64,000 nt of DNA from Panopea generosa. Its lineage: Eukaryota; Mollusca; Bivalvia; Adapedonta; Hiatellidae. Positions 10,093 to 60,678 of the stretch are shown in pieces; position 1 is the first letter of the stretch, and the number at the start of each line of letters is the position of its first letter. Made by a program: the position numbers and the translations under genes. The DNA is taken from assembly GCA_029582155.1 (NCBI GenBank), contig CM055906.1, positions 13,595,388 through 13,659,387 of the forward strand, given 5' to 3'. The notes beneath the pieces are model-generated. The model searched no databases. It was not told the DNA's origin and saw only the letters and a program-made list of their open reading frames with translations.

Positions 10093-10158
10093 TCACACTG
10101 TCTTAAAATACACACACTAGAATCATACCATCACATGATTTTAAAATACATGCGCTAC
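10093..10158 (+). repeat. Two partial units of the 38-bp satellite, left of the composite element
   Basis: The words CACTGTCTTAAAATACAC, ACTAGAATCATACCATCAC and TTTTAAAATACATGCGCTAC match the 38-bp satellite unit that forms the large array at 13075-14193. The second unit stops at GCGCTACA, exactly where the ~430-bp element copy begins. Confidence 0.85.
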
Positions 10159-10588
10159 AGGTCTCACTGAAGAATTCTTACGCCAAAGAAATTAGAGCTG
10201 TGTAAAGCGGTTGGGCATTTTTTTTGGAAAAAAAATCATAAAATGTCATATTTCTTTATGCATATAGGAACATTAGACCATTTTCATGATTTCCGCATAG
10301 TTTTGATGACATTGAGAACTGTTTGATGATGCTATAACAGTTTAAAGATGCGTAGTGATAAACAGCGCAACAAATGGGTAGAATTGCCAAACATGAAGGG
10401 GTGCCATCAAACCATCGAAATTGTGAAAAAGCAACCTGGTCAACCCCATGTTTTTTCTGCATAATTATACCAACAGAGAACTATCTATGGGAATAAGGCA
10501 GTTTAAGAATCATTGGTTATGTATCCAATGTTCCAGAAGTGCATATCTACATATGTAGAACAGTACAAAATTAAATGGTGTGTGAGAC
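10159..10588 (+). mobile_element. ~430-bp dispersed element, copy 1 (left direct repeat)
   Basis: This copy runs from GGTCTCACTGA to GTGTGAGAC, so the ends carry the inverted words GTCTCAC/GTGAGAC. It aligns along its whole length with the copies at 12626-13074 and 60249-60678. Shared words include AAAGAAATTAGAGCTGTGTA, GATGCTATAACAG and ATGAAGGGGTGCCAT. The element is non-coding. Satellite sequence abuts its left end; ordinary DNA follows its right end. The terminal inverted words suggest a MITE. The pairing with copy 2 in direct orientation also allows an LTR-like reading. Confidence 0.85.
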
Positions 10589-12625
10589 GTTCAAGAACCA
10601 GATTATTTTCAGTAGACGCTTGGAGGAAACTGCATCTTTGTGATTGAGATTTACTTTCTTTTTTAAAATATGATATTTTCAATAAGCAAATAGGGCAATG
10701 AGACTAAACAGCTGAAAATTTGTCATTGAAATATTAGAATCAGGATTTATTGAATTCAATGGCAGGAACACAAAGTTAGATCATTTATTTAACTGAAAGA
10801 GAAATGATCATGTATGCAAATATGCTTTGCTGCATCTAATGATAAAACTTGATTTTAGCCATCTGTCTCAAATTCATGGCTAAAATAAATAGACATTTGC
10901 ACTCGAAAACACTTGAAATTCACACAGAGAGACAGTACTGCTGATATATCACAACAAGTGCATGTCTAGAGCATTCACTGTATCCAGATGTCATGATTCA
11001 TGTTAATTAAACCTTTTCTTTTATGTTAGAAACTCATTATATATGTGAAATTCATACCCCACCAACATAAAAATGGTAACATTTGTCGCAATACTGTTAC
11101 CACTCTTTAGCGCTTGCTTTTTGACAATACGGTTGGTCGCTTATGAGCAATATTGTTTTTATGTCGCTGTTTATCAATTAATATAATGTTGATCATGGAT
11201 TACGGAGAAATTTCCTGTTCCATTGTTTTGTCATTGATATTTGTTATCAACAGCTCTGTATCCAGCTTTCGATAAACCGACTGTCAAACTGTCGTGTTTC
11301 ATTTTATTGGTATGGCGTATGACTGGCATTTTTGTTTTACGGTCTCATTTTTTCGTCATTGTTGATATTTATGCAGCTGGGTCTGGCTAATGCACTACTC
11401 TTGGACATTCTGGTAAATGGTAAAATGCAACATTTCTGAAATGACGTGAAACAATTTTGCGTAATAATTTCTCAGCATTTAGTTAACCGGTTCTTGAAAC
11501 TTGTGTACCATCATCTGATTTCTTTCAGTTGTTCTTCTGACTTCTTTTCAAATAAAAATACATGATGCTTGCTATGGAACATAGATTTTTCTCATTGAAA
11601 TTGATGTTATTTCACCATATGTTATTAAGTGTGTACAATTTTTTTCTCCACATTCAGCAATATAGTATTATCCAATATGATAACTTCTTATTTTATATAA
11701 TTATTGCAACAACTCTGTTCTAATGGCACATTTTTTGCTGACAGTTTTGGAAAATTTGTAAAGTAACGATTCATCTCGCAATAAGTATTTCTTTTTGCGA
11801 TATTCTTCGATATACTTATTTCAAACTAATTTGTCGTAAAGAGAAGCGCTTTAGCAAACCGTCTTTTCGCAATGTGCTTATCGGTCCAGCCAAATTTACC
11901 GTATCCATATTATGTCTCATTTTCATTCATTGATTGATTTTCTTGCTTTATAGTGACTTTCATGCAGACTTTACTTTCATTTGCTATTTAGATTGTTAAA
12001 AAGAACCAAATAGTATTGGATTTCAATATATGCCTAATAGATACCTCAATTGGTAAGGGATCTATTCATAGTTAATAATGAATCTAATGCATGCATACAA
12101 GTTTGTTATTCATTCAAGTATTGCAAAAGGGGGCATGGTAAGTGTCAGTGATATGCAAATTATTGCTTAGTACCTATAAACATTAATATTTGTTTGTTAT
12201 ATATATACAAAAGTCAAATTCATAGTCTTGCAACAAAACAGAGCATTATTTGTAGCAAAAACAACTATTTATTCATATATTGTCATGTATTTTGACACTT
12301 AAGTTATGTAATGTTGCATATACAATAAAATGAATATGCAGTCAGATAGACAAACTATAGGAGACAATGCAAGGACATTTTCAATGTTTTTCTTTTTCTA
12401 GAAATATTTTTATTAAGGTACAATAGCTTATATTTTTGGGCAGTTGTTTGTGTTTCAGAGTCATCCGAAACTGATTTATGCATGTCCAACTGCCATCTTA
12501 TTTTGGTGCATGAATTTGAAAACGTTTTCGCGATAAATTCAAAAGGCATACTTTTAAATTTAAAAATGGTAAAGGTTTGTTCGACAAAAATTTCATTCAC
12601 ATGTCATGACAATTTCAACTCTTCA
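10589..12625. other. 2-kb spacer between the two direct copies of the ~430-bp element
   Basis: The spacer is AT-rich with poly-T runs. Its longest frame is an 81-codon open frame on the minus strand (12355-12600) that ends close to copy 2 and has no recognisable domain. No purine-rich tract precedes the right copy, and I see no clear primer-binding site after the left copy. If the whole is one mobile unit, this is its internal region and it is non-coding. Confidence 0.45.
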
Positions 12626-13074
12626 AGGTCTCACTGATAAATCACCTCACTTACATGACGGTAGCAAGATTCTTATGCCTAAGAAATTAAAGCTGTGTAA
12701 AGCGGTTAGGCAATTTTTTTGCTAAAATGCATAAAATGTCAGATTTCTTTATGCATATGGGATAGTTGGAACATTTTCATGTTTCTGCAAAGTTTGGGTG
12801 ACATTGGAAACTGTTTGATGATGCTATAACAGGTTAAAGATGCGTAGAGATACACTGCAACAAATGGATCGAATTGTCAAAAATGAAGGGGTGCCATTAA
12901 ACCATAGAAATTGTGAAAAAGCATCCTTGTCAACCCCATGTGTTTGGGTTTTTTTTTTTGCATAATTGGACCAACAGAGGACTAGTTATGGGAATAAGGC
13001 ACTTTTAGAACCAGTGTTCCTGAAGTGCATGTCTCTATATATAGAACAGTTCAAAATAAATTGGTGTGTGAGAC
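12626..13074 (+). mobile_element. ~430-bp dispersed element, copy 2 (right direct repeat)
   Basis: It has the same start (GGTCTCACTGA) and end (GTGTGAGAC) as copy 1, in the same orientation. Small indels include an insertion after the start, a longer poly-T run near 12950 and a deletion near 13010. The 38-bp satellite begins at once on its right side with CACAATCATATCG, the continuation of the unit broken off at copy 1. Confidence 0.85.
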
Positions 13075-14193
13075 GCACAATCATATCGTTACACGCTCTC
13101 TAGATACACGTGCTAGAATCATATCGTCACACCCTCTTAACAATACAAGCACTAGAATCATTTTGTCACACGCTCCTAAAATACCATCGTTAGAATCATA
13201 TCGTCACACTATATAAAAATACACGCACTAGAATCATATCGTCGCACACTCTTAAAATACACATGCTAGAATCATATTGCCCCACGCTCGTTAAATACAT
13301 GCGCTACAATCATATCGGCCCACGCTCTTAAAATACACGTGCTACAATCATATTGTCATACACTCTTAAAATACACGCGCTACAATCATATCGTCACACG
13401 CTCTCAAAATACACGCGCTACAATCATATCGAGACACACTCTTAAAATACATGCGCAACAATCATATCGTCACACCTTCTTATAATACATGCACTAAAAT
13501 CATATCATCAAATGCTCATAGAATACACACGCTGGAATTATATAATTTAATTCTCTTAAAATACACGCGATACTATCATATCCTCACACGCTCTTAATAT
13601 ACATGCGTTAGAATCATATCATCACACCCCTCTTAAATGCATGAACTAGAATCTTATCATCCCACGCTCTAAAGTCACGCGCTAGAATCATATCATCACG
13701 CACTCTTAAAATACACGCGCTAGAACAATAATGTCATATGCTCTTAGAATACACATGCTAGAATCATATCATCACACGCTCTTAAAAACACGTGCTTCAA
13801 TCATATCGTAATAACTTCTTAAAATACACGCGAACGAATAAAATCGTCACACCCTCTTAAAATACACGCACTAATATCATATCGTCGCACCCTCTTAAAA
13901 TACAAGTGCTAGAATAATATCGTTACACGCTCTTAAAACACACGCGCTAGAATCATATCATCACAGACTCTTAAAATACACGTGCCAGAATCTTATCGTC
14001 ACACGCTCTTAAAATACACGCGCTAGAATCATATCGTCACACGCTCTTAAAATACACGTGCTAGAATCATATCGTCACGCGCTCATAAAATACACACCCT
14101 AGAATCATATCGTCACACGCTCTTAAAATACACGTGCTCGAATCGGATCGTCAGGGGCTCATTAAATACACGCACTATATCCATATCGTCACG
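13075..14193 (+). repeat. 38-bp satellite array, about 29 units
   Basis: The unit contains ACACGCTCTTAAAATACACG followed by CGCTAGAATCATATCGTC, 38 bp in all. Units vary mostly at CpG positions (for example ACACGCGC, ACATGCGC, ACACGTGC, ACACATGC; ATCGTC, ATCATC, ATTGTC), the pattern expected from deamination of methylated CpG. There is no open frame of note. Two detached units stand at 10093-10158 on the far side of the composite element. Confidence 0.95.
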
Positions 14194-60248: not shown

Positions 60249-60678
60249 AGGTCTCACTAGGGAAATACCTCCCTTACAAGATTATTACGCCAAAGAAATT
60301 AGAGCTGTGTAAAGCGGTTGGGCAATTTTTTTGTTAAAAATGCATAAAGTATCATATTTCTTTGTGCATATGGGAACATTGGAACATTTTTATGATTTCT
60401 GCAAAGTTTGGGTGACACTGGGAATTGTTTCATGATGCTATAACAGTTTACAGATGCGTAGTGATACAATGCAACAAATGTGCAGAATTGTCAAAAATGA
60501 AGGGGTGCCATCAAACCATTGAAATTGTGAAAAAGCAACCTGGTCAACCCCATGCCTCCAACAGAAGACTATCTATGGGAATAAGGCACTTTTAGAATCA
60601 TTGGTAATGTAGCCAGTGTTCCAGAAGTGCATGTCTCTATATGTAGAACAGTACAAAATTAATTGGTGTGCGAGACGT
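60249..60678 (+). mobile_element. ~430-bp dispersed element, copy 3 (solo)
   Basis: It begins GGTCTCACTAG and ends GTGTGCGAGACG, and aligns with copies 1 and 2 over its full length in the same orientation. No satellite lies beside it. It lacks the short AT-rich insert (TTTTTGCATAATT-type) that precedes CCAACAGA in the other copies. No convincing target site duplication was found by eye. Confidence 0.85.

Follow-up and report, generated by a model that had tools for sequence, protein, structure and literature searches.

Does a composite repeat unit that interrupts a satellite array in the genome of the bivalve Panopea generosa belong to any known kind of mobile element? The unit lies at positions 10160-13075 of the stretch analysed here (the window: 64,000 nucleotides, C13:13595388-13659387) and consists of two direct repeats separated by a 2.04-kb non-coding spacer, which together form one insertion in a 38-bp satellite (Table 1). 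A first-pass annotation had proposed that a unit bounded by direct repeats inserted once, with a target duplication of 2-3 bp, and could match it to no element type that it knew well. We queried the genome (1.47 Gb, 39 contigs) for the repeat, the spacer and the joints between them.

Table 1. Features of the composite unit and related sequences, in window positions.
Feature	Position	Strand	Remarks
Left target duplication copy, TACA	10156..10159	+	Placed by the family rule for duplication boundaries
Left terminal direct repeat (LTDR), 430 bp, GGTCTCAC...GTGAGACG	10160..10589	+	Intact repeat is 456 bp; the window copy is shorter
Non-coding internal region, 2037 bp	10590..12626	+	Compared with intact copies, about 124 bp are missing after internal position 91
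Inner TTCAA adjoining the left repeat	10590..10594	+	
Inner TTCAA adjoining the right repeat	12622..12626	+	
Right terminal direct repeat, 449 bp	12627..13075	+	
Right target duplication copy, CACA	13076..13079	+	One substitution relative to TACA
38-bp satellite hosting the unit	13080..14192	+	A short satellite stretch also lies upstream of the unit
Solo terminal repeat	60250..60677	+	Flanked by TTTA (left) and TTAA (right)

Joining the flanks of the window unit with one copy of the duplication gives the satellite 16-mer CGCTACAATCATATCG, which is present three times inside the array (13302, 13378 and 13416), so the earlier proposal that the joined flanks restore an array variant holds. The duplication is longer than the 2-3 bp first suggested. 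It is best read as 4 bp (TACA/CACA) because of the family rule, as most pairable elements on contig C1 have exact 4-5 bp duplications at the same boundaries. The two window repeats share 80.8% identity across 427 aligned columns; the solo repeat shares 85.2% with repeat 1 and 80.4% with repeat 2. No tRNA genes were found in the window. Its remainder (13079-64000) holds unrelated tandem arrays with units of 38, 29, 67, 11, 28, 43, 79, 35 and 33 bp, and several of the long open frames at 26.6-30.8 kb and 62.9-63.9 kb fall within such arrays.

Both parts of the unit recur throughout the genome. The repeat query gave 3097 candidates, of which the best 40 were scored, and the spacer query gave 673, of which the best 40 were scored and were all 88-100% identical. 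A repeat of at least 400 bp flanks the spacer on both sides in 27 of 30 fetched loci, counting five units of one C1 array (L010, L012, L014, L015 and L017) and two loci that are copies of a single place (L026/L028); the exceptions have one repeat (L016, L027) or one repeat and a fragment (L037). Allowing at most one mismatch, we identified 475 repeat-spacer junctions genome-wide (control: 0). A spacer never shared between pairs had been named beforehand as the sign of separate insertions; what we found is a spacer that recurs. The repeat occurs as a solo, in pairs and in tandem multimers. The intact form, represented by L010, measures 456-2175-456 bp, about 3.09 kb in total. With 475 junctions, and no difference between the paired repeats in 8 of 21 elements, the family is large and partly young.

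We found no coding element bearing a window-type repeat. None of the ten open frames of L010 reached the Pfam cut-off (best E-value of 0.04), in agreement with the earlier remark that no coding region is seen, and we set aside a coding remnant on this basis. A structured RNA or ribozyme element was likewise rejected, as L010 had no Rfam match at E ≤ 2 and the window only three chance-level snoRNA matches (E-values of 2.6-3.8). A second internal region behind the repeat was rejected as well: the common flanks in the fetched loci are dispersed repeats, copies of a single place and what by eye is a LINE, and the recurring flank of L008 has frames of 66-81 codons only.

The repeat has the tips GGTCTCAC...GTGAGACG, of which GTCTCAC/GTGAGAC form a perfect 7-bp inverted pair with the terminal base mismatched; the terminal bases are GG...CG. 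Exact 3' ends number 1649 in the genome (control: 17) and exact 5' ends 1420 (control: 85). End contexts were taken from the first 100 listed of each, the 3' ends being all from C1. Nine of the 100 listed 3' ends proved to be an unrelated 66-bp tandem repeat and were set aside; of the remaining 91, the internal region follows in 33, another repeat in 2 and other DNA in 56. The 100 listed 5' ends comprise 32 that follow the internal region, 2 that follow another repeat and 66 that follow other DNA, with 7 of these 66 probably lying outside the repeat family. Among the ends listed, TNNA starts the flank in 44 of the 56 outer 3' ends (C1) and ends it in 54 of the 66 outer 5' ends. The base before GG is C in four listed 5' ends, and one C1 element has the duplication TTCC.

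An exact 4-5 bp duplication is present in 17 of the 23 C1 elements that could be paired among the ends listed, whereas 10,000 shuffled pairings averaged 2.6 and never exceeded 9. A narrower C1 sample, from which 25 listed 5' ends are omitted, gave 16 of 22. The analysis supports the proposal that the unit, with its direct terminal repeats, went in as one insertion. Non-composite loci (among L039-L068) also have exact duplications of 4 or 5 bp, in 14 of 27 cases: the repeat does move on its own, with its own 4-5 bp duplications as a solo. The solo at 60.25 kb in the window may accordingly have moved alone, or may be what recombination left of a larger unit. Together with the short inverted tips and the absence of the repeat between some tandem spacers (see below), this agrees with the MITE-like hint in the first-pass annotation. 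One solo (L083, G000:C1:25629250-25630050) lies within what by eye is an apparent LINE reverse transcriptase gene. Its left flank occurs in near-identical form at five C1 places, so the interrupted LINE copy has itself multiplied.

Divergence between repeats shows that both repeats of one element share a history or template. Leaving the window unit out, repeats are 0.51% apart within elements and 1.60% between elements (21 elements). With the window included (22 pairs), the mean of 1.08% lies below all 10,000 of 10,000 shuffles, whose minimum was 1.74%. The own partner is strictly the nearest repeat in 11 of 21 elements, tied in 5 and not nearest in 5. Between elements, left-left, left-right and right-right distances are alike (2.26%, 2.23% and 2.18%), so the left and right positions do not define two lineages of repeats. 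The two window repeats disagree at 51 of 396 sites, a greater distance than that between the left one and its best match among the other repeats (36), which marks the window unit as old. Gene conversion may have made pairs more alike as well. In L082 (G000:C1:47409150-47412250), the final ~18 internal bases ahead of the right repeat are not the usual tail but look like the genomic DNA flanking the left repeat, as though flank and repeat had been carried across by gene conversion; a similar flank is found at C1:30378636.

TTCAA borders the inner side of each repeat with few changes. A query that joins the internal tail and head at a single TTCAA matched contiguous genomic places: there are 27 internal-internal joints without a repeat, at 14 places (control: 0), as counted with an ungapped pattern with at most three mismatches, which joints with gained or lost bases would escape. 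Two of the 27 (on C13 and C14) are altered at or beside TTCAA. At C6:19.21-19.23 Mb, an array opens with a repeat followed by an internal region, closes with an internal region followed by a repeat and has eight joints in between; one interval measures 3.1 kb against the usual 2.17 kb, the contents having been read at the ends only. From the positions of its ends and joints, C1:14286660-14294172 comprises three internal regions with a repeat at either end, and TTTA flanks it on both sides. Of the further joint places looked at, those on C17 and C4 retain the right repeat but are truncated or scrambled on the left, the one on C18 has the right repeat (L075) and a repeat match left of the joint, the one on C14 has a truncated repeat on one side, and the one on C13 has no repeat within the stretches fetched. 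The left end of L081 (G000:C4:15693830-15695790) is a patchwork of repeat fragment 196-285, internal positions 1361-1436 and then 459 onward.

The earlier view that no well-known element type fits can be revised. KolobokP is a type of animal DNA transposon described by Kojima and Bao in 2022, above all in bivalves, with 228 families published. In these elements an internal region is enclosed by terminal direct repeats of ~450 or ~660 bp, each repeat having inverted tips of its own, target duplications are 3-4 or 4-5 bp and the termini follow the signature 5'-RR ... YY-3' (PMC9587614). The forms described there include solos, multimers of the type (repeat-internal)n-repeat, repeat excision and repeat-(internal)n-repeat, in which the joint keeps one duplication copy. 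Oyster non-autonomous families are 1.7-3.3 kb long. The enzyme is a DDD/E transposase, and an I-PpoI-like His-Me nuclease is an accessory gene of autonomous elements (PMC9587614).

Because architecture, sizes, solos, multimers, duplication lengths and internal-internal joints agree with this description at every point, we consider the window unit to be, very probably, an old member of a KolobokP-kind family of non-autonomous, composite-like DNA transposons. As in KolobokP, the family has an internal region between two direct repeats of ~450 bp (456-2175-456 bp), 4-5 bp duplications, solos, multimers and internal-internal joints at which a single copy of the duplication is retained. Set against the published description, it probably represents a new non-autonomous KolobokP-type family. 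This links a repeat that seemed unclassifiable with a kind of animal transposon that has been described only recently. The repeat tips would be acted on by a KolobokP-type DDD/E transposase that other elements provide. Any left tip could pair with any right tip, which would make solos, monomers and multimers all mobile. Excision of a repeat from between two internal regions would leave one TTCAA. Whole units could be gained or lost, and pairs kept alike, through exchange between repeats or through a circle containing one repeat and one internal region.

The accessory nuclease of KolobokP served as a separate check in this genome. In a profile search for the I-PpoI-type nuclease (PF05551), all of the best 150 of 502 candidates that were scored matched (150/150), compared to 0 of 14 control genomes, and the matches include arrays at ~4.17-kb spacing. 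Beside one match, a 463-bp stretch (L084, 991 bases read) has perfect 18-bp inverted tips and, like the window repeat, begins with AGGTC; in sequence it looks like a candidate KolobokP terminal repeat. This stretch and the window repeat are not significantly similar (best E-value of 0.036). The predicted nuclease genes show that the KolobokP kind is present in this genome, not that it drives the window family. Points against the assignment are this dissimilarity of the L084 repeat, the non-coding nature of the element, the 5 of 21 pairs that are not mutually nearest, and the 3' tip CG, which departs from the YY of the KolobokP signature, while the 5' GG fits RR. One head-to-tail array (G000:C13:7706595-7737151) contains 16 I-PpoI-type nuclease matches, with 12 of 15 steps of 1.70-1.72 kb and 3 of 15 of 3.24-3.26 kb, and open frames of 145-166 codons without stops. 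Its unit seems too short for a transposase and is perhaps a nuclease-only tandem unit, which bears on the idea of the nuclease driving multimers.

Elements of the KolobokP kind mimic LTR retrotransposons and bacterial composite transposons, and are easily annotated as an LTR element, MITE or satellite. We therefore weighed whether the family could be a non-autonomous LTR retrotransposon similar to LARDs or TRIMs, with the repeats as LTRs, the solos as solo LTRs and the multimers formed by recombination. Paired repeats that are near-identical with common changes, and that lack any difference in 8 of 21 pairs, would suit this origin, as would duplications of 4-5 bp; TRIMs, biv-TRIM of bivalves among them, are likewise known to form solos and (repeat-spacer)n-repeat arrays (PMC6934838). 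We nevertheless consider it improbable. The tips are GG...CG and not TG...CA, and by eye neither a TGG-type primer site nor a purine tract was seen adjoining the repeats on either strand, as the first-pass annotation had also observed. The internal ends are no better conserved than the remainder, although this is a weak test, and reverse transcription leaves the internal-internal joints with one TTCAA unexplained.

A MITE of another superfamily, unrelated to KolobokP, might instead have inserted in a 2.17-kb tandem satellite and now be moving pieces of it. Such an insertion would leave exactly the inner TTCAA duplication and the tandem units free of the insert that are observed here. Yet the repeat length, tips, duplication sizes and multimer types all match those of KolobokP (PMC9587614), KolobokP nuclease genes are abundant in the genome, and among the minority of joints read there is no large insert-free satellite outside repeat-bounded elements; we regard this origin as quite improbable. 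The insert-free units may be ancestral or may derive from repeated excision. Two independent MITE insertions that chanced to lie 2 kb apart can be dismissed: the repeat is mobile alone, but the spacer recurs between copies of the repeat at many places, and the outer flanks have one duplication in common whereas the inner flanks do not.

Returning to the KolobokP-kind family, some of its joints bear on how this kind of transposon moves. An element on C6 reads TATA-repeat...repeat-TTCAA-TATA and L058 reads ATAA-TTCAA-repeat-ATAA, while L022, L026/L028, L034 and L036 have a right-side TTCAA and no matching duplication. Among the ends listed, TTCAA adjoins 6 of the 56 outer 3' ends (C1; two of them duplicates of a single place) and 8 of the 66 outer 5' ends (C1), at least four of the latter resembling altered internal tails. 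The dominance of TTCAA among extra bases is partly a detection effect, as other extra bases would go unrecognised. The three pairable C1 elements with TTCAA on the right only have no duplication, and one C1 solo has TTCAA on both sides, which is a plain duplication. At C1:26975099-26976518, repeats abut twice with TTCAATTCAA between them, the only such joints found with at most three mismatches. Because of the extra TTCAA at one end, the TTCAATTCAA between abutted repeats and the pairs sharing one template, we tentatively suggest, at somewhat less than an even chance, that new insertions arise from a circular or excised intermediate carrying TTCAA beside the tips, and not by cut-and-paste of the chromosomal composite. 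The KolobokP authors leave the use of a circular intermediate open (PMC9587614). The TTCAA-bearing insertions and the repeat-repeat joints with extra TTCAA are possibly new.

How does the family compare to known systems? Like TRIMs and LARDs, including biv-TRIM, it has a non-coding internal region between direct repeats, solos and repeat-sharing tandem arrays. In biv-TRIM, repeats of 202-218 bp enclose an internal domain of 77-80 bp with a purine tract (PMC6934838); compared with these elements, the window family differs in its tips, in having no purine tract that we could see by eye and in its internal-internal joints. Like bacterial composite transposons and translocatable units, as they are presented in the KolobokP account, it carries cargo between direct copies of a self-mobile unit, and for translocatable units a circle of one unit and cargo has been proposed as the intermediate (PMC9587614). 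It differs from bacterial composite transposons in that its end unit is non-coding and its host eukaryotic. With respect to KolobokP itself, its 7-bp inverted tips are short compared to the 11-18 bp of oyster families, and its internal duplication is TTCAA; the extra TTCAA at insertions and the TTCAATTCAA between abutted repeats are absent from the parts of the KolobokP description consulted (PMC9587614).
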